A DNA stretch of 64,000 bases from an uncultured Holophagaceae bacterium (GTDB taxonomy: Bacteria; Acidobacteriota; Holophagae; Holophagales; Holophagaceae). Where the stretch lies: assembly GCA_903937385.1 (NCBI GenBank), contig CAIZZF010000026.1:124001-188000 (forward strand). The letters are read 5' to 3'. The position numbers and the translations under genes are program-made. Positions 2,139-58,450 of this stretch are shown one piece after another. How positions within the stretch are numbered: the first letter of the stretch is position 1; each line of letters begins with the position of its first letter. The notes under the pieces were generated by a model that saw only the letters and a list, made by a program, of their open reading frames with translations, did no database searches and was not told the DNA's origin.

Positions 2139-4211
2139 TTACTTACCCATCAGCTCTGCCACCAGCCGGTCGGCGTCCATGATCTTGCGGAGGGCTTCGA
2201 CGATGGCCCGGACGTCCGTGGCCACGGCGCGCTTGGTGTCGGCGTCATAGACGTAGTAGCCGCCCTGCCCTTCATAGACGCTGTCGAAGTTGATGCCCAC
2301 GAACTCGCCCTTGAGGTTGACCACGGGGCTGCCGCTGTTGCCGCCCACGGTGTCGCAGGCGTAGATGAAGTTGAAGGGGGTGGTCAGGTCCAGCTTGGCC
2401 TGCCGGTCCAGCCAGCGCTGCGGCAGGGTCCAGGCGCCCTCTTCGGCGGCGGCGGTGTTGCCGCCCCAGCCCAGGTGGCGGTCGAACATGCCCATGTAGG
2501 TTGTGAAGGGCTGGGCCTTGGTGCCCGTGCCGTTGGCGTAGGTGGTGACCGGCCCGAAGCCCAGGCGCAGGGTGAAGGTAGCGTCAGGGTACAGCGTCTT
2601 GCCGAAGGTCTTGAACCGGGCCTCGGCGATGCGGCCGCCGTGCTCGCTGAGCACGCTGGTGACCTCGTCCTCCACCTGCTTGCGCACGGCGCGGTTGAAG
2701 GGATCCAGCTTTCGGGCCAGGGCCAGCATGGGATCGACGCTGGCCTCCAGGGCCCCCCGGCCACCCTCGGCCAGCTGCTTGCGCACGGCCGGATCGTCGA
2801 GCCGGCTGCCTTCCACGGCGGCCTTGGCAACGGCCTCCGGGGTCAGGCCGCCCAGCATGGCCTGCACGTAGGGATGCCCCGCGCCCAGCTGGTCCTGGGC
2901 CTCCCGCAGGCCCGCCGCCAGCAGGGTCACGTCGATGGGCTTCTGCACGGGGCGCGGCAGGACCAGGCGGGCCTTGGTGGCCTTCAGATTGCCTTCGCTG
3001 AACTCCGTCAGGCGCAGGGCCGAGGGCTTGGCTTCCTCGTCCGGCAGCCGCACCAGGGTGAGGGCATGGCCCAGCAGGGTGACGCGGCCCGCGGAGATGT
3101 AGCTGGACGCTTTCAGCAGAGCCTGCTGGCGTGCCACGGCCTGGTCCACCCTCTGCCAGCTCTCGGCCACGCGGGCCTGCAGAGCGGGATCCTTGGCCAC
3201 GGCTGTCTGCAGCGCTGCCTCGGCGTCGGCCACCTGCTTCAGGTTCTCGGCCTTGGCCAGGCCCAGCAGCTGCCCGCTGAGCCGCTTGTAGCCGTTCTCG
3301 ATGCCGTAGATGGCGTCGGCGGCGATGCGCCGGGCCTCGGGCGAGGTGGCGGACAGCGCCTGCAGCGCCGCCTTCTGGCGGTTCATGGACTTCAGCTGGA
3401 AGGGGATGCCGGTGTCCCGCGCATAGACCATCTGGCTGTGGGTCTGCTGGCGGAAGGTGGTGCCCGGATGGCCCGAGATGAAGGTCAGCTCGCCCATGGC
3501 GATGCCCTTGGCGCTGAAGGGCAGGAAGGCCTCGGGCCGGTAGGGCTGGCCGTTCTCGTAGACACGGAAGAGGGCGAAGTCCAGGTTGTGGCGGGGGTAG
3601 GTGTAGTTGTCGGGATCGCCGCCGAAGGCCGCCACCTGCAGCTCTGGCGAGGCGGCGAGGCGCACGTCCGTGAACTTCTTGTAGCGGTAGAGCCAGTATT
3701 CTCCGCCCTGGTAGAGGGTCACGGGCTCACAGGTGAGGCCGGTCCTCGCCTCCTCGGCCTTGCGCAGGTCCGCCAGGGCGTTGCGCCGGGCGGTGAGGGC
3801 GTCCTTGTCCGCGGTCCCGGGCTTCACGGCGGCATTGACCCGCGCGGTGACATCCTCCGTGGACACCAGCATCATCAGCTCGAGGCCCGGCACCTTGAGC
3901 TCCTGCTCGCGGGTGGCTGCCGTGAACCCGTCCCGGACCAGATCGGCCTTGGCGCTGGAGACCTGGGCGATGGAGCCCCGGCCCACGTGGTGGTTGGTGA
4001 CCACCAGCCCATCGCGGCTCACGAAGGCGCCAGTGCCCCCGGGGAACCGCACCGTGGCCAGCTGCAGGTTCTTCAGCCAGGACGGGCTCAGCTCCACCCC
4101 GTACTTCGCCTTGATCTTCTGCACCGGGATGTTGTCGAAGGTCCACATCCCCTCGTCAGCGCGGAGCGCCGGCAGGGCAAGCAGCAGGGCAAGGGCGGAA
4201 AGTCGGCGCAT
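2139..4211 (-). CDS. S46 family dipeptidyl-peptidase, paralogue 1 (serine at the S1 determinant)
   Basis: A 690-residue secreted S46 serine peptidase of the DPP7/DPP11 type, which removes dipeptides from the free N-terminus of peptides in the periplasm. The start is the ATG at 4211, not the in-frame TTG upstream, because GGGAG lies 5 nt before it and a signal peptide (RRLSALALLLALPALRA) follows directly. The catalytic triad is visible: His75 in TNHHV, Asp211 in RHNLDF and Ser626 in GGNSGSPV. The Asp before the S1-determining position (FD) is kept. That position itself, 18 residues after the catalytic Ser, is Ser644, where DPP7 types have Gly and DPP11 types Arg. Two S46 paralogues lie upstream and the DNPH1-like gene follows within 2 nt. 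Confidence 0.93.
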   Translation of the reverse strand: MRRLSALALLLALPALRADEGMWTFDNIPVQKIKAKYGVELSPSWLKNLQLATVRFPGGTGAFVSRDGLVVTNHHVGRGSIAQVSSAKADLVRDGFTAATREQELKVPGLELMMLVSTEDVTARVNAAVKPGTADKDALTARRNALADLRKAEEARTGLTCEPVTLYQGGEYWLYRYKKFTDVRLAASPELQVAAFGGDPDNYTYPRHNLDFALFRVYENGQPYRPEAFLPFSAKGIAMGELTFISGHPGTTFRQQTHSQMVYARDTGIPFQLKSMNRQKAALQALSATSPEARRIAADAIYGIENGYKRLSGQLLGLAKAENLKQVADAEAALQTAVAKDPALQARVAESWQRVDQAVARQQALLKASSYISAGRVTLLGHALTLVRLPDEEAKPSALRLTEFSEGNLKATKARLVLPRPVQKPIDVTLLAAGLREAQDQLGAGHPYVQAMLGGLTPEAVAKAAVEGSRLDDPAVRKQLAEGGRGALEASVDPMLALARKLDPFNRAVRKQVEDEVTSVLSEHGGRIAEARFKTFGKTLYPDATFTLRLGFGPVTTYANGTGTKAQPFTTYMGMFDRHLGWGGNTAAAEEGAWTLPQRWLDRQAKLDLTTPFNFIYACDTVGGNSGSPVVNLKGEFVGINFDSVYEGQGGYYVYDADTKRAVATDVRAIVEALRKIMDADRLVAELMGK

Positions 4212-4229
4212 GGGAACTCCCAAAAAAAA

Positions 4230-4303
4230 TTCACCGCGAAGACAGGAAGACCACGAAGAAGGGAGAAGGTTTTATTCTTCGTGGTCTTCGCGGTCTTCGT
4301 GGC
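4230..4303. repeat. Intergenic imperfect inverted repeat, CACGAAGA-unit type
   Basis: This lies between two S46 paralogues transcribed in the same direction. The left arm (4230-4260) reads as degenerate units of CACCGCGAAGA and CACGAAGA. The right arm (4275-4302) is its near reverse complement, so the RNA would fold into a hairpin of about 28 bp with a 14-nt loop. Each arm is itself made of 8-9 nt quasi-repeats. A close copy lies at 6417-6490. It could act as a transcript-stabilising or attenuating element between operon genes. Confidence 0.85.
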
Positions 4304-4312
4304 TAAAAAAAC

Positions 4313-6397
4313 CTACTTCCCGGTCAGCTCGGCGACGAGGTGCGGGGCGTCGTAGATCTTGCCCAGGGCCTCGAGGATGGCGCGGGCGTCCACGGAGACG
4401 CTCCGGTTCACCTTGTCGTCGTAGAAGTAGCGGCCGGCGTTGCCTTCGATGTTGCCGTCGAAGAGGAGGCCCACCAGCTCGCCCTTGCGGTTCACCACGG
4501 GGCTGCCGGAGTTGCCGCCGGTGGTGTCCACGGCGTGGGAGAAGTTCAGGGGGGTCTTCAGGTCCAGCTTGCCCATGCGGTCCAGCCAGCGCTGGGGCAG
4601 GGTCCAGTCGGTGTAGTCCTTGGCCTGATTGCCGCCCCAGCCCAGGTGGCGGTCGTAGAGGCCCAGGAAAGTGGTGAAGGGCTGCTGGAGGGTGCCGTTG
4701 GCCGGGTAGGTGGCGACGGCCCCGTAGGTGAGGCGCAGGCTGCTCGTGGCGTCCGGCGGCAGGGTCTTCCCGTAGACCGCGAAGCGCGCCTTGGCGATGC
4801 GGGCGGCGTGTTCCTCGACGATGGCCCGCACGTCATCCTGCTTCTTGCGCAGGCTGAGCAGGATGGGCTCCAGCTTGCGGGCCAGCTGGATCATGGGGTC
4901 GGTGCTCGCGGCCACGGCCTTGAGCCCGCCCTCCACCAGGGCCTTGCGCGCGCCGGGCTCCCCGAGCTTGGTGGCTCCCAGCAGGTTCTTGGCCACCGCC
5001 TCCGGCGCCTTCCCACCCAGCACCGCCACCACGTAGGGGTGCTTGGGACCCAGCGCCTGGGCGGCATCCTCGAGACCCCGGGTGAACATCAGGGTCTCCT
5101 GCTCCGCCGTGAAGGTCATGCCCATCATCCCCGTGGCGGGGCCCGCGAGCCGGGTCTTCAGGGTCTTCAGGCCGCTCTCGGACCGGTACTCCGTCAGTCG
5201 CTTCTCCGCAGGCAGCTCCAGCTGCTCGGCGAGCCGCACCAGCGCCAGGGCCTGCCCCAGGGTGGTGGAGCGGGCGCCGCCGAGGTGCTGGGCCTCGGTG
5301 AGGAAGCCCGCCTGCTGCTTCAGGGCCTGCTCGATGCGGGCCCAGCTCTTGCCGGTGCTGGCCTCCAGCTTGGGATCCTTGGCCACCGCGGCGCGCAGAG
5401 CCTTCTCGGCGGCCTCCAGGCGCTTCATGGCCTCGGCGTCCTTCAGCCCGGCCAGGGCGCCCTCGTTGGCCTTGGTGCCGTTGTTCACACCCAGGATCGC
5501 CGTCTGGACCTGGCGGGCGTGCTCGGGGCTGCGCTTGCCGTATTCCTCGAAGATGCCCCGCAGCCGCTCGGAAGACTTCAGGCCCGTGGGGATGCCGAGG
5601 TCCCGGTCGTACTTCATCTGGGCAAAGGTCTGGAGCCGGCTGGTTCGGCCCGGGTGACCCACCACGAAGGTGAGGTCGCCCGCCTGCAGGCCCTCAGTAC
5701 TCCAGGTCAGGTGGTGGGCGGGATGGTAGGGCTGGTCGTTCTCGTAGACGCGGACCAGGCTGAAGTCCAGGTCATGGCGCGGGTAGGTGAAGTTGTCGTA
5801 GTCGCCACCGAAGGCCGCCACGGCCATCTCGGGCGCGGCCACCAGGCGCACGTCCTTGAACACCTTGAAGCTGTAGACCCAGGTCTCGCCGCCCTGGTAG
5901 AGGTTCACGATGTCACAGGTGAGGCCGCTCTTCTTCTCCGACTCAGCCTTGATGGTTTCCAGCTCCTTGGCCCGGGCATCCGCCGCGGCCTTCTCGCTGA
6001 GGCCTGGCTTGAGGGCCTTGGCCAGGCGCTCGGTGATGTTCTCCATGGCCATGAGGGTGCGATAGGTCTGGCCGGGGATCTTGAGCTCCTGGCTCCGGTC
6101 CATGGCCACGAAGCCGTTCTTCACCAGGTTCTTCTCCTTGGTGGAGAGCCGCTGGATGGAGCCCCGGGTGCAGTGGTGGTTGGTGAGCACCAGGCCGTCA
6201 GCACTGACGAAGGAGCCGGTGCAGCCACCCAGGGTGAGGGTCGAGAGCCGCACGTGGTCGAGCCAGTCCCGACTTGGCTCGAAGGCATACTTCGCCTTCA
6301 GCTGCTTGAGCGGCAGGTTGTCGAAGGTCCACATCCCCTCCTCGGCGCGAAGCACCGGCAGGGCAAGCAGGAAGACAAGGGCGGAAAGTCGGCGCAC
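4313..6397 (-). CDS. S46 family dipeptidyl-peptidase, paralogue 2 (DPP7-like)
   Basis: A 694-residue secreted S46 peptidase, paralogous to both flanking genes. The start is GTG at 6397: GGAG lies just upstream and the following residues form a signal peptide (RRLSALVFLLALPVLRA). The sequence further upstream in this frame belongs to the intergenic repeat. The nucleophile Ser630 sits in GGNSGSPV, the catalytic His in TNHHC and the Asp in RHDLDF. The S1-determining position is Gly648 (LFDG), as in DPP7-type enzymes that prefer hydrophobic P1 residues. Its order within the run and the repeat elements on both sides suggest tandem duplication of a gene-plus-spacer unit. Confidence 0.93.
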   Translation of the reverse strand: MRRLSALVFLLALPVLRAEEGMWTFDNLPLKQLKAKYAFEPSRDWLDHVRLSTLTLGGCTGSFVSADGLVLTNHHCTRGSIQRLSTKEKNLVKNGFVAMDRSQELKIPGQTYRTLMAMENITERLAKALKPGLSEKAAADARAKELETIKAESEKKSGLTCDIVNLYQGGETWVYSFKVFKDVRLVAAPEMAVAAFGGDYDNFTYPRHDLDFSLVRVYENDQPYHPAHHLTWSTEGLQAGDLTFVVGHPGRTSRLQTFAQMKYDRDLGIPTGLKSSERLRGIFEEYGKRSPEHARQVQTAILGVNNGTKANEGALAGLKDAEAMKRLEAAEKALRAAVAKDPKLEASTGKSWARIEQALKQQAGFLTEAQHLGGARSTTLGQALALVRLAEQLELPAEKRLTEYRSESGLKTLKTRLAGPATGMMGMTFTAEQETLMFTRGLEDAAQALGPKHPYVVAVLGGKAPEAVAKNLLGATKLGEPGARKALVEGGLKAVAASTDPMIQLARKLEPILLSLRKKQDDVRAIVEEHAARIAKARFAVYGKTLPPDATSSLRLTYGAVATYPANGTLQQPFTTFLGLYDRHLGWGGNQAKDYTDWTLPQRWLDRMGKLDLKTPLNFSHAVDTTGGNSGSPVVNRKGELVGLLFDGNIEGNAGRYFYDDKVNRSVSVDARAILEALGKIYDAPHLVAELTGK

Positions 6398-6416
6398 GGG
6401 GACTCCAAGAAAAAGG

Positions 6417-6490
6417 TTCACCACGAAGACGGGAAGACCACGAAGAAGAGCCAGGTTTTTTTCTTCGTGGGCTTCGTGGTCTTCGTGGTT
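6417..6490. repeat. Intergenic imperfect inverted repeat, CACGAAGA-unit type
   Basis: The left arm 6417-6447 begins TTCACCACGAAGAC and repeats the CACGAAGA unit. The right arm 6461-6490 is its reverse complement with scattered mismatches, separated by a 13-nt loop. It closely resembles the elements at 4230-4303 and 41881-41962. It sits in the spacer between S46 paralogues 3 and 2, 19 nt upstream of the start of paralogue 2. Confidence 0.85.
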
Positions 6491-6499
6491 AAAAAAATC

Positions 6500-8581
6500 C
6501 TACTTGCCGGTCAGCTCGGCGACCAGGGCGGTGGCGCCGTAGACCTTGTCGAGGGCGAGGGTGAGGGCGCGGGCATCCACGGAGACGCCACGGTTCACGG
6601 CCTCGTCATAGAAGTAGTTGCCGGGCAGCATCTCGATGTTGCCATCGAAGATCAGGCCGACCAGCTCACCCTTGCGGTCAATGACCGGGCTGCCGGAGTT
6701 GCCGCCGATGATGTCCACCTTGTGGGCGAAGTTGAAGGGCACCGAGGGATCCAGGGCACCGCGCTTGTCCACCCAGCGCTGGGGGAGCGTCCAGGCGCCC
6801 TCGTGGGCCTTCGCCGCATTGCCGCCCCAACCGTCGTAGCGGTCAAAGAGGCCGCCGAAGGTGGTGAAGGGCTGGATGAGGGTGCCGTTGGCCGGATACT
6901 CCGCCACGGCGCCGTAGGTCAGGCGCAGGGTAAAGGTCGCATCGGGGTAGGTGTTCTTGCCGTAGGCGGCGAAGCGGGCCTTGGCGATGCGGGTACCGTG
7001 CTCGGTGATAACGCTCTGGACCTGCTCCTTCAGCTTCTTCTTGAGGTCCCGATCGATGGGCTCCAGCTTCCGGGCCAGGAGGATCATGGGATCCACGCTG
7101 GCATCCAGAGCCTTCTTGCCACCCGCCAGGAGGGCCTTGCGGACCTCAGGATCATTCAGCTTGGACCCGCTCACGGCGTTCTTGGCCACGGCCGCCGGCG
7201 AGCTTCCGCCCACCATGGCCTTCACGAAGGGATGGGCATCGCGCAGCTCAGCCACAGCCTCTTCGAGGCCCTTGGTGAAGAGGAAGACTTCCTGCTCTGG
7301 ATAGTAGGGGGCGGGGACACCCAGGCGGGCCTTGGCGGCCTTCAGGTTGGCGTCGCTGTACTCGGGAAGGCGCTGGTCGCCGGGCTTGGCCTCCTCGTCG
7401 GTAATGCGCACCAGGCTCAGAGCGTAGCCAAGCAGGGTGGAGCCGGCGGTACCCACGTAGGCGCTCTCCCGGGACAGGCTGGCAGACAGGGTGGTGGCCT
7501 GCTCGATCTTGGCCCAGCTCTGACCAGCCTCGGAGGCCAGCTTGGGATCCTTGGCCACCTTTGCCCGCAGGTCCTGCTCAGCAGCGGCGATCCTGGCCAT
7601 GGCGCCCGGGTCCTTGAGACCCGCCCAGTTGCCGGTGGTGGCCTTGATGCTGTTCTCGATGCCAAAGATCTGGGTGTTGACTTGGCGGGAGGCCTCGGGG
7701 GAGGTCTTGGCGTATTCCACCAGCGCAGTCTTGCGGCGCTCCATGGCCTTCAGGCGCAAGGGGATGGCGGTGTCCCGGCTGAAGAGCATCTGGGCATAGG
7801 TGTCCTGGCGGTTGGTGCGGCCCGGGTGGCCAATGACGAAGGTCAGATCCCCAGACCGCAGGCCCGTCCCAGTCCACTTGAGGTAGTCCTTGGGCTGGTA
7901 GGGCTTGCCGTTCTCATAGACGCGGAAGATGGAGAAGTCCAGGTTGTGCCGGGGGTAGGTGAAGTTGTCGGGGTCGCCTCCGAAGAAGGCGATCTGCTGC
8001 TCGGGCGCGAAGACCAGTCGCACGTCCGTGTGCTTCTTGTAGCTATAGATCCAGTGCTCGCCGCCCTGGTAGAGGGTGACGTGCTCGCAGGTGAGGCCGC
8101 CCTTCTCCTGCAGCTCCTTCTTGATGACCTCGATGGCCGATTCCCGCGCCTTGAGGGCCTCCGTCTCGCCCAGCGTGGCGGACACAGCCTTGGCGAGGCG
8201 GGCCGTGATGTCCTCCATGGCCACCAGGGTCATGAGCTCCAGGCCCGGCACCTTGATCTCCTGCTCCCGGGTGCTGGCGGCAAAGCCGTTCTTCACCAGG
8301 TCCTGTTCCTTGCTGCTCACGCGCTGGATCCAGCTCCGGCCCACGTGGTGGTTGGTCAGCACCAGGCCGTCCTTGCTCACGAAGGACCCGGACCCGCCGG
8401 GGAAGCGCAGGCAGGACAAGCGCACATGGTCCAGCCAGGCCTGGTCGGGGGCCCAGCCGAACTTGGCCTGGATGGCCTTGGTCGGAAGGTTGTCGAAGGT
8501 CCACATGCCCTCGTCGGCCCGAAGGGAGGCGCCAGTGAGCGCCAGGGTCAGCAGGGACAGGGTGAGTGAGCGGGTGTTCAT
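6500..8581 (-). CDS. S46 family dipeptidyl-peptidase, paralogue 3 (DPP7-like)
   Basis: A 693-residue S46 peptidase, the promoter-proximal member of the triplet. The start ATG at 8581 has a GGAG site 5 nt upstream and opens a signal peptide (LTLSLLTLALTGASLRA). The catalytic His lies in TNHHVGRSW, the Asp in RHNLDF and Ser629 in GGNSGSPVID. The S1 residue is Gly647 (IFDG), predicting DPP7-like preference for hydrophobic P1 side chains. All three paralogues have YPRH where characterised S46 enzymes have WPRH. Given the operon arrangement, this gene's promoter probably drives the whole run down to the MEKHLA gene. Confidence 0.93.
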   Translation of the reverse strand: MNTRSLTLSLLTLALTGASLRADEGMWTFDNLPTKAIQAKFGWAPDQAWLDHVRLSCLRFPGGSGSFVSKDGLVLTNHHVGRSWIQRVSSKEQDLVKNGFAASTREQEIKVPGLELMTLVAMEDITARLAKAVSATLGETEALKARESAIEVIKKELQEKGGLTCEHVTLYQGGEHWIYSYKKHTDVRLVFAPEQQIAFFGGDPDNFTYPRHNLDFSIFRVYENGKPYQPKDYLKWTGTGLRSGDLTFVIGHPGRTNRQDTYAQMLFSRDTAIPLRLKAMERRKTALVEYAKTSPEASRQVNTQIFGIENSIKATTGNWAGLKDPGAMARIAAAEQDLRAKVAKDPKLASEAGQSWAKIEQATTLSASLSRESAYVGTAGSTLLGYALSLVRITDEEAKPGDQRLPEYSDANLKAAKARLGVPAPYYPEQEVFLFTKGLEEAVAELRDAHPFVKAMVGGSSPAAVAKNAVSGSKLNDPEVRKALLAGGKKALDASVDPMILLARKLEPIDRDLKKKLKEQVQSVITEHGTRIAKARFAAYGKNTYPDATFTLRLTYGAVAEYPANGTLIQPFTTFGGLFDRYDGWGGNAAKAHEGAWTLPQRWVDKRGALDPSVPFNFAHKVDIIGGNSGSPVIDRKGELVGLIFDGNIEMLPGNYFYDEAVNRGVSVDARALTLALDKVYGATALVAELTGK

Positions 8582-21769: not shown

Positions 21770-22288
21770 GAGGACACCTCGAAGCAGGTTGCCAGTCACC
21801 TTGCAGGAAGGACCCGACCGGTGCCGGCACGCGGGTGGCCCAGGAAAGACTCACCGAAACGGAGGACAAGCCGCTGGCAAGTCTCCTCAAAGTAGCCGTA
21901 CCGCCCCCTCGAGCGCCAGCCATCTCCACCAACCCGTGCCTGTTTCCCGCAAATTCCTACCGATAGGTAGTCAAAGGACAAGAATCACCTCCCTATCTCA
22001 TTTGGTTCTTCCGGAATTTCCGGGAAGGCCAACTCTCACTGGATTCATCCAGCTCGTGGGGGAAGCACAACGACTCTCGCAGAGGGTGCGGAGGGGCTGA
22101 GGTTCGCAGAGAACAGCGGGTAACCCGCAACCCTCAGCGCCCCTCCGCTCCCCTCGTCTTTTCTCTGCGAGAGTGGTTGCTTTCCCCCGAGCGTGCGGAG
22201 ACGACATAGAGGGTGGGGGTGGCGTGTCGAGCCTCTTTCCCTGCAATCCCGGATGAACCTTTCTTGGGGTTCCGATCGGGGCCTGCGC
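21770..22288. other. 519-nt spacer upstream of glgC with two short palindromes and a long hairpin
   Basis: No credible gene lies here; the open frames that cross it start in glgC antisense or read through the hairpin. The glgC-proximal half holds CTACC-gata-GGTAG near 21957 and a near-palindrome CTTCCGGAATTTCCGGGAAG near 22007, which could be regulator sites for glgC. The araC-proximal half holds the long repeat at 22053-22192, probably part of the 3' region of the araC-type transcript. Confidence 0.6.
22053..22192. repeat. Long imperfect inverted repeat, CTCTCGCAGAG-unit type
   Basis: The outer arms GTGGGGGAAGCACAACGACT and its counterpart ending in GGTTGCTTTCCCCC pair over about 26 positions. 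Inner arms GTGCGGAGGGGCTGAGG and CCTCAGCGCCCCTCCGCTC pair further in, giving one hairpin of about 140 nt. The short internal units (CGCAGAG, GCGGAGGGG) make it a sequence-divergent member of the same architectural family as 26456-26544 and 41881-41962. It lies just past the 3' end of the AraC-type gene. Confidence 0.78.
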
Positions 22289-26431: not shown

Positions 26432-26455
26432 CACCACCGCAAAGAAAACTGACTT

Positions 26456-26544
26456 TTAACCGCAAAGAACACAAGGGGCAAAAAAAGGGATCTCCCTTTT
26501 GCGCCCTTTGCTTTTTTTGTGTTCTTTGTGCCCTTTGTGGTTAA
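26456..26544. repeat. Long imperfect inverted repeat, CACAAAGGG-unit type
   Basis: The left arm starts TTAACCGCAAAGAACACAAG. The right arm, read as reverse complement, starts TTAACCACAAAGGGCACAAAG and has an extra unit or two. Both arms share A7 runs and end in GGGA near the loop. The unit CACAAAGGG/CAAAGAACA repeats about every 9 nt. It lies between convergent genes (decarboxylase and STAS), so RNA from either side would carry the hairpin. Confidence 0.85.
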
Positions 26545-26605
26545 TTTTTTTCTTTTTCCTTACCCAGCAGTCCTTCTCTGCGGAGAACCCCCTGTTGTCG
26601 AAGGA

Positions 26606-26991: not shown

Positions 26992-29900
26992 CTACTTCTT
27001 TAGGAGCGCCTTGATCTCCGCCAGCTCAGCCTTGAGGGCATCCAAGTCCGAGCGCAGCTGATCGTTCTCGGCCTTTAGTTCCTGCACCGCCTTCACGGTG
27101 TAGGGAATGACCTGTTCGTAGCGCATACCCCAAAGGGCCTTGGTGTCATCTTCGGGACGATATACCGCGGTGGGAATGATGCCGCTGACTTCCTGGGCCA
27201 CGAAGCCCGCCTCGTCGTCGCCCCCATCCTCCAGCACCAGGGCGCCGTTCACAAAGTGGCTCCTGTGCTTGAAGTAGGTCTTGGGTTGCAGACGCATCAG
27301 GGTGGCAAGGGCATTGGCAATGGCCTTCTGACCGCCCTTCACGCGCCCATCGGACGTGTTGATGGCACTGGTGCCGGAATAGATCGTCTTCCACCTGAAT
27401 GTTGCGGAGCCAAAATCCGCCAGATTATCGTTGGATGGAATGACACTGGCCAGAGAGCTATTCGTATTGTTGTAGGTGCCAAATCGAATAAGCGTTACAG
27501 TGTCGCTCCCGAGGACAACAGCATTGTCCTCTTTTACAATGGAATTATATCCAATGGCCGTCTGATTTTGGGCATTGGGCATAATTGATTCTGCATAAGC
27601 GCCAATGAAGGTATTGTAGCTGCCCGTTGTATGACTTTGGCCGGTCAAATAGCCAATGCTGACATTGGAACCACCAGAGGTTACCACCGGAAGGGCATCG
27701 GCGCCGATCGCCACGTTCTGAGTCCCCGAGATCCATGTCGCGGTTCCTCCAGAATTCCCACCCAGCGACCTAGCTCCAAAGGCCGAGTTGTTTCCTGTGC
27801 TTGCAGAACCAGGTGCGAGTTGCTTCATTGCGGAATAACCAAACGCTGTATTCCCTGCGGGCGTATTACTCAACGTGGCTATTGAGTTGGTGCCGCCTTT
27901 GGTATTGAAGCTGCCATCGGAAGTAACAGAGCCACCAGCCGGGGCAGCGCTTGTCCAGGTCGTTCCATTGGAGGTCAAGACATTTCCGGAAGTGCTAGGG
28001 GCGACGACCTGCAAGGCACTTGTTCCATTGCCAAGCAGCACGTTGTTCGCGGTAAGCGTGGTTGCTCCCGTGCCACCGTTTGCGACGGGTAGCGTGCCAC
28101 TCACCCGCGCCACCGGCACGGTGCCAGTAGTGATGGTGCCCAGGGTAGTGATGGAGGTCTGACCGACGTAGCCGGCATCGATATCCACCGAAGGGGTGGT
28201 GGTCCCGCTCACGGCGATCCGGTTGGTCGTGCCACTGACACTGGTGACCCCACCCGAGGCCGGTGTGGTCCAGGCGAGGGTGCCACTGCCATCCGAAGCC
28301 GTCAGCACCTGGTTGGCGGAGCCAACGGCACCCGGCAGCGTGAGGGTGTAGCTGGTCCCCACCGTGGCTGGCGCCTGCAGCTTGATGCTGTTGGTGCCCC
28401 CCGTGGCGGCGAGGTAGAGCCCGCTCCAGGCATTCGTGGTCGAGCCCAAGGTGGCGGCGTTGTTCTTGGCGGGAATCACGCTGGCCAGGCTGCTGGCCGT
28501 CGACGTCCCAAGCTGCACCTGTGTGATGCCATCTCCGCCCAGCACGGCCTGGTTGTCTACCAAGACCCTGGCGTTGTAGCCGACCGCGATGCGGTTGGTG
28601 GCGGTGACGGCCGCAGCATTGTCCACATTGGTCCCGGCGCCCAGGAGGACGTTCTGGGCGCTGGCGCCCCCCGCAAAGGAACCACTGCTGTTGCCCAGAG
28701 TGGTGTTGCTGCTTCCAGTGAAGGTGTTGGAGCTCAGCGTATTGGAGCCGATCCCGACGTTCGAGCTACCGGAAGCATAGATCATGGCCCAATTGCCGAG
28801 CGCGACATTGTTGCTGCCAGTGCCACCCCCTTGCGAGAAGGCGTTGTAACCGACGATCGTGTTGCTGCCGCCTGTGCCAAGACCGCCACCGGCATTGGCC
28901 CCCACCGCCGTGTTGTTGCCACCGGTAGCGCTGCGCAGGGCCGTGTCGCCCACGGCGACGTTCCACTGACCGCTCACGTTATTGTTCAAGGCGCGGTTGC
29001 CGACGGCGACGTTGCCCGTGCCCGAGGTGTTTGAGGCCATGGCCAGATAGCCGAAGGCGTTGTTGCCACGGTCATCGGAGGTATTTCCGCTTCCCGGGTT
29101 GGTGGCAGATAACGCGCCGGCCCCAAAAGCGGTGTTGAACCGGGAGGTGGTATTGAGCGTCAGGGCCTGGTAGCCGAAGGCGGTGTTGGACTGCCCCGTG
29201 CTGGCGACGGTCGCCGCCAGGGCGCTGGTGCCGCCTGCGGTGTTCCCGGTACCGAAGGAGCCGAGGCCCGTGGCCACCACATTGGTGAGCTGGGAGCCAT
29301 CCACCACTGGCAGCTTCGAAGAGGCATTCAGCTGCACCAGGTTGTTGGCCCCGGTGCCTGCGTTGAGGATCGCGGCGGTGCCAAGCCCAAGGGCTGTCCG
29401 TGCGGCGGCAGCATCCGAGGCTCCCGTCCCGCCATTGGCCAGGGGCAGGATACCGGTGACTTCGCTGGTGAGGTTGACCGCCGCACCGTTGGTGGCGGAG
29501 GTCAGGCGCCCCTGGGCGTCCACCGTGACATTGGCGCGGGTGTAGCTGCCTGCGCTGACCGCGGTATTGGCCAGGCCGAGGGTGCCCGTGGTGGTGATGG
29601 GGCCTCCCGTCAGGCCCGTGCCCGCCGCCACGCTGCTCACGGTGCCCGTGGCCGCCGCGGTGGGCGCCCACTTGGCGCCGTCCCAGGCCAGCACCTTGCC
29701 GGTGCCGTTGCCGGTGAGGGTGACGTCACTGAGGTCCGCGCTGGACAGCGTCACCGTGCCCGTCTTCCCGGCCACGCTGGCCACGGCCTGGGTCTGGCTG
29801 ATCTTCTGCCAGGCGGTGCCGTTGGAGATCATCCAGTCGCCCACGCCGAAGGCCAGGCCGCTGCCGGTCTCGGTGCCGGCGGCGCCGATGATGTAGTAGT

Positions 29901-32694
29901 TGCCGGAGCCTTCCACCGTCACGGTGGGGTTGCCCGAAAGGGTCTTATTGCCCTTGTAGGTGAGGCCGCTGATGGGCAGCAGGGCCGTGGGGATCTTGCC
30001 CGCCCCGTCCAGCACCGGCACGTTGCCGCTGCCCGTGCCCGTATCCGCCACGGCTGCGGTGCCGAGGCCCAGGTTGACCCGCGCCGTGGGGGCGTCGGAG
30101 GCGCTGGTGCCGCCGTTGGCCACGGCCACGATGCCCGTCACGTTGGCCGCGGTGCCGCTGACATTGCCCACCACGTTGCCCGTGAGGCTGCCGGTGACGT
30201 TGCCCGTGAGGTTGGCGGTGATGGTGCCCGCGGCGAAGTTGCCGGAGCCATCTCGGCTCACCACCGTGGAGGCCCCGGCGGCACTGGCCGCGGTCAGGGT
30301 GGCCGTGTTGCCAAGGCCGAGGCTGGTGCGCGCGCTGGCGGCATCCGTGCCGCCGGTGCCACCCGCCGTCAGCGGCAGGGTGCCCGTGACCTTGGCGCTG
30401 TTGAGGTCCACGGCCCCCGTGGCCAGGTGGTTCCCGGTGATGCCGCCGGTGGCGATGCTCACGTTGGGGGCGTTGTAGGCCAGTCCCCCGCCAAAGAGAT
30501 AGGTCGAGCCCGCGAACTGCACCCACTGCGTGCTGGCTGAGAGGTAGACATAGCCGTTGGAGCGCGCCGTGGCGAACACCGAGGTGCTGTTGGCGGGTGC
30601 CGTATAGCCCCAGGCAGCCCCATCCCACTGGGCAATGGCGTTGACATGGGTGTCCCAGGGGCTGATGGCTGAGGGGCCCACGATGTAGCGGTCTCCCGTT
30701 GCGGGAGATAAGCCTGAGGGATCCGCCACGATGTCGATGACCGGGTCCTTCCAGGAGAGGCCGGCGGCGATGCTGTCCACGTAGGCCTTGTTGGCGGCAT
30801 CCCCGGTCTGGGTGGGCGTCCCCAGCCCGGTGATGGCGGCTGCGGCGAAGCCGCCCGAACCATCCCGCTTCACCAGGGTCGAGGCCGTGCCAGAGCTCGT
30901 CGCCGCCCCCGTCAACGCCACGCTGGCGGCCACATTGGCTGCGCTGACGCCCCCCACGGAGGCCACCACGGTGGATCCCTGGGTGCCCGTCACGTCTCCC
31001 AGCAGGGAGCCCGTGAAGCCCGCCGCCGTCCCGGTCACATTGCCCACGACGTTGCCGGTCAGGGTGCCCGCGACATTGCCGGTCACGTTGCCGGTCACGC
31101 TGCCCGTGAGCGGGCCGGAGAAGGCCGGGGCCGTCACCGTGCCCGTGAAGGTCGGGCTGGCCAGAGGCGCCTTGGCGTCCAGGGCCGTCTGTGTGGCGGC
31201 GGACACCGGCTTGCTGGCGTCCGAGGTGTTGCTGACGTTGCCCAGCCCCAGGTTGCTGCGGGCGGTGCCCGCGCTGGCCAGGTCGCTCAGGTTGCTGGCG
31301 GCCTTGAGGCTGCCCGTGGTGCCGGAGCTGAAGGTCGCGAAGTCCGTGGCGGCCAGGTAGCCGTCCACGCTGCCGGTGGCCTTGGCCAGGCTCACGACCG
31401 GAGCCGTGGTGCCGGTCACGGTCACCGGGGCCGTGCCGGTCACCCCCGTCACACTGCCGCTGCCCACCGGGGCCCAGGCGGCACCGTCGTATTGGTAGAG
31501 GCCCGCCGGGGCATCGGTCTGGTAGACCAGCAGGCCCGTGGCGGGCGAGGCGATGGCGCCGCGCTGGACGGCAGTCATGCGTGGCGTGAGGAAGCCTTTG
31601 GTGGTGCTGGCCACCTCCAGGGCGGCGCTGGCGTTGGGGGCGGCGGGCGTGCCCGCCAGGGTGGAGCCAATCCCCACAGAGCCCGCGGTGTAGACGGCAT
31701 TGCTGCCGTTCAGCGTGAAGGGGCTGGCCCCCGCCGCGCCCGTGGCGCCTGCGGCACCGGTTGCACCCGTGGCCCCAGCCAGACCCGTGGGGCCGATGGG
31801 ACCCTGGGCACCCGCCGCTCCAATGGGACCCTGGGCACCCGTGGCGCCAGCGGCACCCGTCGCGCCCGGGGTCCCCGCCAGGCTCACGCCGGAGACAGGC
31901 CAGGCACCGGCGACCTTGGGGCCCCACAGGGTGTTGGTCGTGGTGTTCAGGTAGAAGTCGCCGTTGCTGCCCATGCCCACGGCGGGGATGGTGGTGCCGT
32001 TCAGCACGGTTCTGCCGTCGAGGCCAGCGGCGCCGGCGGCACCGGCGGCTCCCGCCGCGCCCGGCAGGCCAATGGGGCCCTGCGGGCCGGTGGCGCCCGT
32101 CGCCCCCGCCGGTCCCGTGTCGCCCTTGACGCCGACGACACTGCTGGGCACGAACTTGGTACCGTTGAAGGCGAGCACCTGGCCCGTGGTGGGCTTGGTG
32201 GTGGTCAGGTCGATGGACACACCCTGGATCTGGGTGATGAGGGTCTGGTTCTGCGTGCCGGTGACGTCGCCGCTGAAGGCGCCCACCAGCTCCCAGGCGG
32301 ACCGCGCCTGGAAAGCCGGCACCAGGTCCACGTCCGGCAGCAGAGGCGTCCCGCCGATGAGCAGGTGCAGCTTCAGGCCCGCGAGGCCCAGCACCGAGGA
32401 CGAGATGGGCGTCATCCCTGTGGAGCCCAGCACCACGGAGTAGAGACCGTCCGTGACCGTGACGGTGACGGTGCCGGAGTTCCAGACTTCGAGGCCCGTG
32501 CTGTCCAGCAGCGAGAACACGAAGCTGCGGGCGCCATTCGCGGCGACACCAGCCTCCTTGAGGCGGCCCTGGTAGGCCAGCTGCGGCAGAGGCGCGGCGG
32601 CGACGGCGGCGGCGGCCGCCGGCTCCTGGGCCGACAGGGGGCTGCCCAGGGCGATGAGGGTGGCCACGGTGGGGGTCAGGAAGGGATGGCGCAT
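26992..32694 (-). CDS. Giant modular surface fibre: collagen-like, YadA-head-like repeats, S74 chaperone domain
   Basis: A 1900-residue exported protein. The start is ATG at 32694 with GGAG upstream; reading frame further upstream is antisense-like Pro/Ala sequence over the lipoprotein gene. A signal peptide to about residue 23 is followed by a YQGRLKEAG beta domain (40-110) and collagen-like Gly-X-Y runs (about 188-325, interrupted once). Next come long NVTGNVTG/GNGGTGASDAAAARTALGLG-type repeats as in phage tail fibres (to about 1140). YadA-head-like repeats (NTAFGYQAL, NVAVGNRAL, NTIVGYNAF) lie at about 1148-1395 and again at 1608-1741. The S74 self-cleaving intramolecular chaperone starts at TSDGRVK (Ser1781, Lys1786), and a leucine-zipper coiled coil (about 1870-1900) ends the chain. 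There is no YadA membrane anchor, so it is probably a trimeric fibre held on the surface by other proteins, perhaps those encoded just upstream. Confidence 0.9.
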   Translation of the reverse strand: MRHPFLTPTVATLIALGSPLSAQEPAAAAAVAAAPLPQLAYQGRLKEAGVAANGARSFVFSLLDSTGLEVWNSGTVTVTVTDGLYSVVLGSTGMTPISSSVLGLAGLKLHLLIGGTPLLPDVDLVPAFQARSAWELVGAFSGDVTGTQNQTLITQIQGVSIDLTTTKPTTGQVLAFNGTKFVPSSVVGVKGDTGPAGATGATGPQGPIGLPGAAGAAGAAGAAGLDGRTVLNGTTIPAVGMGSNGDFYLNTTTNTLWGPKVAGAWPVSGVSLAGTPGATGAAGATGAQGPIGAAGAQGPIGPTGLAGATGATGAAGATGAAGASPFTLNGSNAVYTAGSVGIGSTLAGTPAAPNASAALEVASTTKGFLTPRMTAVQRGAIASPATGLLVYQTDAPAGLYQYDGAAWAPVGSGSVTGVTGTAPVTVTGTTAPVVSLAKATGSVDGYLAATDFATFSSGTTGSLKAASNLSDLASAGTARSNLGLGNVSNTSDASKPVSAATQTALDAKAPLASPTFTGTVTAPAFSGPLTGSVTGNVTGNVAGTLTGNVVGNVTGTAAGFTGSLLGDVTGTQGSTVVASVGGVSAANVAASVALTGAATSSGTASTLVKRDGSGGFAAAAITGLGTPTQTGDAANKAYVDSIAAGLSWKDPVIDIVADPSGLSPATGDRYIVGPSAISPWDTHVNAIAQWDGAAWGYTAPANSTSVFATARSNGYVYLSASTQWVQFAGSTYLFGGGLAYNAPNVSIATGGITGNHLATGAVDLNSAKVTGTLPLTAGGTGGTDAASARTSLGLGNTATLTAASAAGASTVVSRDGSGNFAAGTITANLTGNVTGSLTGNVVGNVSGTAANVTGIVAVANGGTSASDAPTARVNLGLGTAAVADTGTGSGNVPVLDGAGKIPTALLPISGLTYKGNKTLSGNPTVTVEGSGNYYIIGAAGTETGSGLAFGVGDWMISNGTAWQKISQTQAVASVAGKTGTVTLSSADLSDVTLTGNGTGKVLAWDGAKWAPTAAATGTVSSVAAGTGLTGGPITTTGTLGLANTAVSAGSYTRANVTVDAQGRLTSATNGAAVNLTSEVTGILPLANGGTGASDAAAARTALGLGTAAILNAGTGANNLVQLNASSKLPVVDGSQLTNVVATGLGSFGTGNTAGGTSALAATVASTGQSNTAFGYQALTLNTTSRFNTAFGAGALSATNPGSGNTSDDRGNNAFGYLAMASNTSGTGNVAVGNRALNNNVSGQWNVAVGDTALRSATGGNNTAVGANAGGGLGTGGSNTIVGYNAFSQGGGTGSNNVALGNWAMIYASGSSNVGIGSNTLSSNTFTGSSNTTLGNSSGSFAGGASAQNVLLGAGTNVDNAAAVTATNRIAVGYNARVLVDNQAVLGGDGITQVQLGTSTASSLASVIPAKNNAATLGSTTNAWSGLYLAATGGTNSIKLQAPATVGTSYTLTLPGAVGSANQVLTASDGSGTLAWTTPASGGVTSVSGTTNRIAVSGTTTPSVDIDAGYVGQTSITTLGTITTGTVPVARVSGTLPVANGGTGATTLTANNVLLGNGTSALQVVAPSTSGNVLTSNGTTWTSAAPAGGSVTSDGSFNTKGGTNSIATLSNTPAGNTAFGYSAMKQLAPGSASTGNNSAFGARSLGGNSGGTATWISGTQNVAIGADALPVVTSGGSNVSIGYLTGQSHTTGSYNTFIGAYAESIMPNAQNQTAIGYNSIVKEDNAVVLGSDTVTLIRFGTYNNTNSSLASVIPSNDNLADFGSATFRWKTIYSGTSAINTSDGRVKGGQKAIANALATLMRLQPKTYFKHRSHFVNGALVLEDGGDDEAGFVAQEVSGIIPTAVYRPEDDTKALWGMRYEQVIPYTVKAVQELKAENDQLRSDLDALKAELAEIKALLKK

Positions 32695-32746
32695 GGGGTC
32701 TCCAAAAGGGGCAAGCAGGCAGTTCGCGGAAGCAGAGGGGCTGGAC

Positions 32747-33268
32747 CTACTGGCCCGAGGGGGTGTAGCCGTGGCGGACCTGCACCGTGGCGCTGGCATC
32801 CGCGGCGGTGCGTACCACCATGGGCTCGCCCACCACGGCGGCGTTCTGGACAGCCCCGCTGGCGGAGCCCTGCTGGCTGCCATTGGCGGACACCACGTCG
32901 GGCCTGGACACGGCGGGCGGGGGCGGGGGCAGCACCGTGGCCTGGGCGCTGGCGGTGTAGCGCACGTCCCCGTTCCACATGGCGACGATGCGGTAGCTGC
33001 CGGGCGCGCTGGCGGCCGTGAACAGGCCCCCGGGCGTGAAGGTGCCGCCCGTGGCGGGCACCACGGACCAGGTGGCGGTGCCACCCCAGGGGATGACGGC
33101 CGTGAACTGCAGGCTCTGGCCCACGCTCAGGGTGGCCTCGGCGGGGCTCACGGTCATGACCTGGTTGATGGTGGCCAAGCGGTCGCCGGTGGTGCGGTCG
33201 CCGCCGCCGCAGGCCAGCAGCAGCAGGGCAGAGGTCGGGAGCAGGGTTCGGAGGCGTGGGGTGCGCAT
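32747..33268 (-). CDS. Lipoprotein with bacterial Ig-like domain
   Basis: A 173-residue protein with a lipoprotein signal (LLPTSALLLLACGGG; the Cys of the lipobox is about residue 20). One Ig-like (Big-2-type) domain follows (VMTVSPAEATLSVGQSLQFTAVIPWGG to TASAQATVLPP). A Pro run leads to a C-terminal segment with the pattern SANGSQQGSASGAVQNAAVVGEP and a closing RHGYTPSGQ, reminiscent of the short repeat tails found beside fibre proteins of this type. GGGAAT upstream of the ATG supports the start. It lies 52 nt upstream of the fibre gene and 9 nt downstream of the barrel gene, so a surface-anchoring or assembly role with the fibre is plausible but unproven. Confidence 0.78.
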   Translation of the reverse strand: MRTPRLRTLLPTSALLLLACGGGDRTTGDRLATINQVMTVSPAEATLSVGQSLQFTAVIPWGGTATWSVVPATGGTFTPGGLFTAASAPGSYRIVAMWNGDVRYTASAQATVLPPPPPAVSRPDVVSANGSQQGSASGAVQNAAVVGEPMVVRTAADASATVQVRHGYTPSGQ

Positions 33269-35087: not shown

Positions 35088-35145
35088 AACCACCGCAGAG
35101 AAAAGGAATTTCTAACCACAAAGAGCACAAAGGGCACAAAGGGAA
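35088..35145. repeat. Single-arm repeat, CACAAAGGG-unit type
   Basis: The sequence reads AACCACCGCAGAGAAAAGGA, then AACCACAAAGAGCACAAAGGGCACAAAGGG-like units with a period of about 9 nt. Unlike the elements at 26456 and 41881, no matching opposite arm is seen nearby. It looks like a half-element or a remnant. It lies just after the AraC gene and upstream of proBA. Confidence 0.7.
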
Positions 35146-38951: not shown

Positions 38952-39030
38952 TTCACCACCAAGGCACCAAGGTTCTTTACGCCTCGCGAATCGGCTTCGC
39001 CGATTCGCGAGACGAACAGACTATTGGTGG
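38951..39030. repeat. Intergenic element, CACCAAGG-unit type, enclosing a perfect palindrome
   Basis: The left part ATTCACCACCAAGGCACCAAGG (38951-38972) repeats the CACCAAGG unit. A short matching end CTATTGGTGG (39021-39030) closes it. In between lies the perfect palindrome at 38983-39011. The whole sits between the aminotransferase stop and the ligase-M20 start, 28 nt before the latter. It is the shortest and most decayed-looking two-sided member of the family. Confidence 0.6.
38983..39011. terminator. Perfect 13-bp palindrome after the aminotransferase gene
   Basis: CTCGCGAATCGGC and GCCGATTCGCGAG pair perfectly around TTC, 31 nt after the aminotransferase stop. No T-tract follows. The core CGAATCG/CGATTCG resembles those of the palindromes at 20504 and 24973. 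It may terminate the aminotransferase transcript or be a REP-like unit. Confidence 0.5.
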
Positions 39031-39058
39031 ATCTCAGTACTAACTGTCCGGAGTCCCC

Positions 39059-41869: not shown

Positions 41870-41880
41870 ACAAGGACGGA

Positions 41881-41962
41881 TTCACCACGAAGACAGGAAG
41901 ACCACGAAGGAAGACAAGTGACCATGTCTTCTTCTTCGTGGTCTTTCCGTCTTCGTGGTTAT
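41881..41962. repeat. Long imperfect inverted repeat, CACGAAGA-unit type
   Basis: The left arm 41881-41916 (TTCACCACGAAGACAGGAAG and on) and the right arm 41925-41962 are near-perfect reverse complements over about 36 nt with an 8-nt loop. This is the best-paired copy in the window. It lies between the convergent ligase-M20 and malate synthase genes and shares its arm sequence with the S46 spacers at 4230 and 6417. Confidence 0.88.
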
Positions 41963-41983
41963 AGCCCTTTCACTTAAAGGCCC

Positions 41984-46704: not shown

Positions 46705-47283
46705 GCGAAATAAAAAAAATTAGCCACCGATGAGCACCGATAAAAGCCTATAAAGAAAATACTTAGGTTATCTATTTGCTTCGAGTCCAAGGGCCTTTGA
46801 CGGGGATCAAAGGGATGGACGGGGATAAAGCGGCTGGGGGTCCATGGGCAGCGACGCATGGGCTCCTTCCCGGTGTGCCATGCAGAGGATGGGTCGGCGC
46901 CCCTCTGCGTTCTCTGCGGTTAAATCGTTTCCTGGTTATCGGCCAGACTCCACTAAAAAGACGCTCTGCGGGCGCAAGTAGCACACGAATGCCCCTTGAC
47001 TCACCGCGGGCATCCCCAAGGGGGCGGTCGCACGCGACCGGGGGCCCCAGGTCCGGATGCCCTGTCGGCGCGATGACTGCGCCTTCGTGGTCCTTCGGGG
47101 TAGTTCTTCGTGTCCTTGGTAGAGATCTTTGAAGGTCAAATTTGGCGGAGCAAGGCCGATAACCAGGACGTGTTTTTCATCATGCTTTTATCGGTGTTCA
47201 TCGGTGTTCATCGGTGGCTGATTTGCTTTTAGCTTTTAGCAGTGTTTAACAGCCTTCACCGGTGGCTGCTTTGCCTTTTGCTG
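46705..47283. other. 579-nt convergent spacer packed with repeat remnants of several unit types
   Basis: No credible gene is present. The outer parts form a long inverted repeat: the left arm 46719-46747 has two CACCGATGA-type units and ends in ATAAAAGC; the right arm 47184-47222 has three. Inside are further half-elements: GGGGATCAAAGGGATGGACG-like units near 46802, a TTCTCTGCGGTTAAA piece near 46909 (as in the 22053 element), and CTTCGTGGTCCTTCGGGGTA near 47083 (CACGAAGA type). A TTCACCGGTGGCTGCTTTGC copy follows near 47255. It looks like a graveyard or landing site for this repeat class. Confidence 0.75.
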
Positions 47284-58378: not shown

Positions 58379-58450
58379 AACCACGAAGAGGCGAAGACCC
58401 CAGAGGCCAATGGGTAATCGAAACCACAGAGGGCGGAGAGGGAGCTGAGG
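58379..58450. repeat. Tandem half-elements, CACGAAGA and CACAGAGG unit types
   Basis: AACCACGAAGAGGCGAAGAC is followed by CCCCAGAGG, then after 12 nt by AACCACAGAGGGCGGAGAGG. These are two left arms in the same orientation, of two unit types, with no clear opposite arm. They lie in the 211-nt spacer upstream of fabG. A remnant pair is the simplest reading. Confidence 0.65.

Follow-up and report, generated by a model that had tools for sequence, protein, structure and literature searches.

The question raised by this locus is what the short intergenic hairpins found near position 26456 are, and by which process they were dispersed. The stretch analysed (64,000 nucleotides, hereafter the window; 68% GC) comes from a source genome of 3.68 Mb, and its genus is represented in the collection by 47 species or more. 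The main element (26456..26547) lies between convergent genes and has arms of CACAAAGGG-type units with the outer ends TTAACCGCAAAG ... CTTTGTGGTTAA; the imperfect inverted repeat previously proposed here was borne out, with an RNA fold z of -4.8. All nine intergenic sites described by a sequence-only reading were found, exactly where reported or within about 20 bases, and its placement of those at 26456, 41881 and 46705 between convergent genes was correct. The design of arms facing each other holds at most sites, but not at 35088 and 58379, where arms occur in a single orientation: a solo arm of CACAAAGGG-type units at 35112..35143 (plus strand), whose partner was not found nearby, and degenerate arms read from the sequence at 58379..58450 (plus strand), in which CACGAAG and CACAGAGG units are mixed.

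Strong hairpins, as judged by folding against shuffled sequence, are formed by the two-arm CACGAAGAC-type elements at 4230..4304 (z -8.4, identified by sequence and fold) and 6416..6492 (z -7.3), and by the element of the same type located between convergent genes at 41880..41964 (z -11.0; site G of the congener comparison). The element at 6416 is placed like that at 4230 relative to an adjoining gene of similar size. Indeed, both occupy matching places between three near-equal open reading frames (2139-4223, 4313-6424 and 6500-8581), and therefore the two elements may have been duplicated together with the genes. The two-arm CTCTCGCAGAG-type element at 22070..22175 reached a z of -6.2, and its type is also found without a gene at a thiolase site in congeners, described below. 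At 38952..39040 (z -5.8) the CACCAAGG-type left arm stands as previously described, but the right arm is degraded and the loop is formed by a different palindrome, CTCGCGAATCGG. A separate palindrome family, CTCGCG[A/T]ATCGG..., occurs as a loop within arms at 38975-39015 of the window and at two further loci (L371 and L373). No strand is assigned to these five elements or to the main one. The units reported at 46719 and 47184 are present; however, both arms belong to one element of about 500 bases with nested repeats. Its CACCGATGAA-type left arm (46720..46743, plus strand) and right arm (47190..47219, minus strand) were recognised by unit pattern, and sequence reading revealed GGGGAT-type units (46796..46826, plus strand) and a CGCAGAG-type arm (46900..46922, minus strand) nested between them. 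The list of unit types given previously was incomplete, since the CGCCAAG, CGCAGATGA, CACAGATTT, CAGGATTAA and GGGGAT families have the same design.

These elements exceed what is expected by chance. In the window, a loose unit-pair pattern gave 15 matches, against 3.2 expected from first-order resampled sequence. Host-wide counts, which rest on pattern searches and on sequence stretches, amounted to 65 matches for CACNAAGNNCACNAAG and 77 for CACNGATNN(N)CACNGAT, compared with 1 and 0, respectively, for the same patterns read backward. About 750 kb of the host genome that were read contained dozens of hairpin sites, some of them nested in one another (for instance L116 10683-11196 and L120 10568-10914). 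The arms consist of units 8-10 bases long, for example CACGAAGAC, CACAAAGGG and CACCGATGAA. In a set of 151 distinct elements, whose core positions were set by the search pattern and whose third unit was left free, 93% have an identical base immediately outside CCAC on the two sides (51% expected), and the agreement of unit type from one arm to the other is 80-93%, where about 50% is expected. Complementarity of the two-base unit spacers is only 44% and 41% (32% and 37% expected), so that the arms are matched by unit type and not maintained as perfect stems. The third unit is still conserved, at about 60-76% for each fixed base. A longer form (L296-L325; in the host L116, L120 and L145) encloses a conserved GC-rich interior of approximately 100-230 bases with several nested palindromes, and this interior, GGCATGGCCCC ... 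GTGTCGGCGC, is common to elements whose arms differ in unit type; such long interiors shared across arm types show the elements to be apparent mosaics.

Hairpins that fold strongly and lie near stop codons might be bidirectional terminators or mRNA-stabilising structures retained for their function. This explanation would also account for their relative rarity between divergent genes (10 of 84, compared with 73 of 313 other spacers, p 0.02) and for the enrichment of A bases 9-12 positions outside each arm. Nevertheless, the unit spacers of the two arms are only weakly complementary, a simple terminator scan of the main site found no match, and full elements reside within the rpoB-rpoC and ftsA-ftsZ operons, in which a strong terminator would carry a high cost. 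Furthermore, orthologous spacers are often empty or occupied by unrelated types. We therefore consider a retained terminator function improbable as the reason for the hairpins, although terminator or RNA effects could arise as a side effect of the elements.

The turnover at orthologous spacers deserves a closer description, since the comparison of copies between relatives that had been proposed revealed both occupied and empty states. Nine host sites were picked and eight of them were compared in detail with congeners. At the site orthologous to 26456, G003 has a different unit mixture, and no element was present in the other congeners examined. At site E, an otherwise nearly identical element has a right arm of two units in the host but of eight units in G055, and the site is empty in G054 and G058. 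Site C is empty in G009 and G017; a single element is present there in G004 and G047, and G055 and G056 have several in a chain. At site G (41880), congeners have a remnant, a different unit family or three elements joined together; some genomes carry CACGAAG types, and others a CAGGATTAA type that shares the paired-arm design (the latter replacing the CACGAAG element at the orthologous spacer in L399, L400 and L401). The number of units per arm thus changes by whole units, through both expansion and contraction. At site I of G056 (L407), a 762-base insert resembling a small toxin-antitoxin pair takes the place of the hairpin.

A candidate partner of the hairpins was found at site D, where G017 has an open reading frame of the GxxExxY family between arms of 10-base units; for this reason the family (PF13366) was examined, and it was detected in 40 of 47 congeners. 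Using a test blind to the unit sequence (an inverted match with a score of at least 18 across the gene), arms were found to bound PF13366 genes at 23 of the 30 loci from the genus and at 19 of the 28 from the phylum, compared with 27 of 460 control genes; the controls came mostly from element-rich stretches, and some gene loci share one site, so that not all are independent. None of the 34 control genes within the window had an inverted match across the gene. In the gene-bearing forms, then, a PF13366/TIGR04256 gene is bounded by type-matched inverted arms of tandem units. Clear arms also surround a gene of Bacteroides finegoldii, located between radA and its neighbour (inverted-match score 24), and one of Bernardetia (score 20.5), while those of Treponema and Sphingomonas have weak arms and that of Gemmatirosa has another repeat at its flanks; the inverted-match test found no arms around the copies of Persicobacter and fusobacteria.

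Series of states were obtained at two spacers whose gene identities were read from the sequence and not from a database. Between ftsA and ftsZ, the spacer is empty in G000, G002 and G012, contains the gene between CACGGAG arms in G033, G040, G009 and G049, and contains an internally deleted gene in G039 and a hairpin without a gene in G008, with arms as in the gene-bearing congeners. The spacer between the thiolase and 3-hydroxyacyl-CoA dehydrogenase genes can be empty; gene-bearing forms occur there with two arm types and gene-less forms with three, and a remnant contains a nested CACAAAG insertion. Copies at ftsA|ftsZ and rpoB|rpoC can be aligned over 461-472 bases with 83% identity; the homology starts at CACCACGGAG and ends at CCGTGGTGAATC(CT) or CCGTGGTGAATCCT, and the flanks are unrelated. 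The unit ends on both sides at the outer arm edges. Judged by these alignments, arms and GxxExxY gene are shown to form one unit that moves or has moved, and the ftsA|ftsZ series shows, at this one site, that gene loss can leave a hairpin. Only ftsA|ftsZ gives direct evidence of gene loss within the same arms, because elsewhere the gene-less hairpins often have another arm type; the same-arm gene-less orthologue was thus demonstrated for that spacer and not for the window's own hairpins.

The opposite order of events has also to be considered, namely that the hairpins came first and that GxxExxY genes are parasites inserting into type-matched hairpin loops, similar to the insertion sequences that target REP palindromes. 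The hairpins of the host greatly outnumber its GxxExxY genes, the arms also enclose the GC-rich palindromes of the shared long interior and other nested repeats, and in G148 a GxxExxY unit is carried within an IS5-like element, all of which speaks for this order. However, the unit shared by ftsA|ftsZ and rpoB|rpoC includes the arms and stops at their outer edges, near-complete genomes devoid of the gene are almost free of hairpins, and the arm type tracks the protein phylogeny; insertion into pre-existing loops is, therefore, unlikely, although it retains more weight than the other alternatives. In G148 (L469-L488), the GxxExxY gene and its arms are passengers of an IS5-like insertion sequence, and many copies of the latter have an identical internal deletion of the passenger gene. 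Self-spread with internal deletions was rejected for these copies, which were excluded from the evidence because they are carried by the IS5-like element.

The association between arms, protein and repeat number was also evaluated. A tree was made of 40 GxxExxY proteins, with a single protein for each site after removal of same-site copies; on it, the arm class (xAG or GAT) changes twice, compared with a mean of 9.0 after shuffling, and none of 500 shuffles was as low. Of the genomes with a completeness of 93% or more, four lack the gene and had 0, 1, 2 and 2 unit matches, and the 26 that possess it had 5-148, in counts that ignore kinship and in a correlation that is partly trivial, since the arms of gene-bearing elements themselves add unit matches. 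In the genus, a three-unit pattern gave 0-49 matches per genome. The host has about 140 unit matches and one GxxExxY gene, which means that most hairpins either depend on action in trans or are old.

Dispersed palindromes at gene ends, arranged in doublets and clusters with patchy copy number, resemble REPINs or REP-like elements moved by a RAYT (Y1/HUH) transposase. As in the REPIN/RAYT system (PMC3116915), there are non-autonomous palindromic spacer doublets, a single-gene partner and co-evolution of repeat and partner. The partner in that system, however, is a Y1/HUH transposase, which is absent here: PF01797 had no match in the host, for which this origin was rejected, nor in the genomes richest in xAG-type repeats, and it occurs in 5 of 47 genomes, its presence being uncorrelated with unit matches in the 30 genomes at least 93% complete. 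In addition, the arms described here consist of tandem 8-10 base units (CACNRAG/CACNGAT, read by eye) with a gene between them in the full form. REP palindromes have a conserved GTAG/CGTC-type tag. A RAYT origin is consequently hardly credible, and the parallel is one of possible working, not of descent. MITEs and elements of the IS200/IS605 type are also similar, as short non-autonomous forms with inverted ends exist beside a gene-bearing form; but the present elements carry neither a DDE nor a HUH transposase between their arms, target-site duplications were not seen, and the ends are made of tandem units.

The single GxxExxY gene of the host (L144 10017-10403, minus strand) is located directly after leuS and adjoins a CACCGATGAA element. 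Its product matched the TIGR04256 (3e-38) and PF13366 (1e-38) profiles. In 24 diverse members of the family, the residues G, E and Y of its name and D66, E76, Q90 and Y94 are invariant, and K78, the lysine of ExK, is present in at least 90%; the protein at L212 is devoid of this lysine. D...ExK constitutes the active site of the PD-(D/E)XK superfamily, and QxxxY occurs in its RecB/Cas4-like members. The protein thus has the D...ExK residues of PD-(D/E)XK nucleases, although its structure prediction (pLDDT 49) was too poor to confirm the fold, and no solved structure related to it was found. Searches of the literature for the family (TIGR04256, PF13366 PDDEXK_3) yielded no described biology and no linked repeats, its name being mentioned in unrelated papers; searches by unit sequence returned unrelated papers only, and no work linking such repeats to GxxExxY was found, in a search mostly outside subscription journals.

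Taken together, our findings suggest, with a probability of roughly 0.7, that a compact element of bacteria and archaea exists in full copies, with a GxxExxY gene between two arms, and that the hairpins are its gene-less counterparts. The full element spans approximately 450-500 bases. Its left arm consists of about three units of 8-10 bases and is followed by a gene of about 120-130 codons belonging to TIGR04256/PF13366 and, putatively, to the PD-(D/E)XK superfamily, and by an inverted right arm of the same unit type; the element is placed directly after stop codons, within operons or between convergent genes. We hypothesize that the protein or its dimer recognises the cognate arms, that its cut may fall on an extruded hairpin or at, or close to, the outer CCAC/GTGG ends, and that host repair or template switching would then copy the element into another spacer, the nuclease thereby moving the arms. 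Gene-less hairpins would derive from internal deletion and might be copied in trans. Regarding the common mobile, recombination or RNA-based process previously suggested, mobility is supported by the occupied and empty orthologous sites, the nesting, the moved unit with defined ends and the gene partner; an RNA-based origin is neither needed nor shown.

The design extends far beyond the genus. Two units, a loop of 10-40 bases and two inverted units were scanned against GTDB contigs and found in at least 116 stretches from many bacterial phyla and archaea (Proteobacteria, Acidobacteriota, Chloroflexota, Planctomycetota, Verrucomicrobiota, Bacteroidota, Nitrospirota, archaea and others among the matches listed), against a chance expectation well under 1 by a base-count estimate. 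Among these cross-phylum matches listed, a GxxExxY gene lay within about 8 kb at 2 of 116 hairpin loci. Hairpins are also present in 32 IMG/VR stretches, but the gene was found neither in viral contigs (three queries) nor in 50,697 phage records, and a viral origin was rejected; among 72,556 plasmid records, just 8 contained the gene. We give even odds to the broader proposal that these elements represent an unrecognised mobile class of bacterial phyla and archaea, in which a RecB/Cas4-like PD-(D/E)XK GxxExxY nuclease copies itself and many empty hairpins by recognising the tandem 8-10 base units of the arms, nuclease and arms co-evolving.

That no named family exists for such hairpins, as the sequence-only reading stated, is supported by Rfam, which gave no match above the gathering score in the window and only a tmRNA in 14 further loci. 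However, Aklujkar 2009 (PMC2700814) had already listed similar paired sites of tandem units for Geobacter metallireducens, predicted there to be sites of global regulators (IHF/HU). In the part of that paper available to us, each class 2 site contains TCTCCGTS[Y] (reverse complement RSACGGAGA) three times in tandem, the sites being paired, one on either strand, at variable distance, and one further class is said to resemble multicopy sequences of many other genomes. The class 2 consensus fits the CACGGAG-type arms of the genus and of the cross-phylum set, and the window's own units differ from it by one or two bases. Paired arrays with a 9-10 base period and variable spacing would be compatible with protein binding, and the hairpins could then be chromosomal regulator sites, as proposed for Geobacter classes 1-4. 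Given that unit sequences are diverse within one genome, that occupancy turns over within the genus and that the arms flank one particular gene family, we regard this interpretation as very improbable. The same part of the paper describes no GxxExxY link, gene-bearing forms or orthologous empty sites, unlike the present work.

The reading as gene-less forms of a mobile element gives two unexplained things one shared testable hypothesis, as no accepted explanation exists for the repeats, which span many phyla, and annotation names GxxExxY without a described function. If the nuclease moves the hairpins, they would constitute a replicative partner system parallel to REPIN/RAYT with an unrelated enzyme; if true, this would account for common strain-to-strain differences in spacers, including those of the essential rpoB-rpoC and ftsA-ftsZ operons.

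Close to the main element, the window contains a minus-strand open reading frame of 2030 codons (26992-33084) with long stretches of 9-, 12- and 27-base periodicity, which resembles collagen-type Gly-X-Y repeats and possibly encodes a surface or fibre protein.
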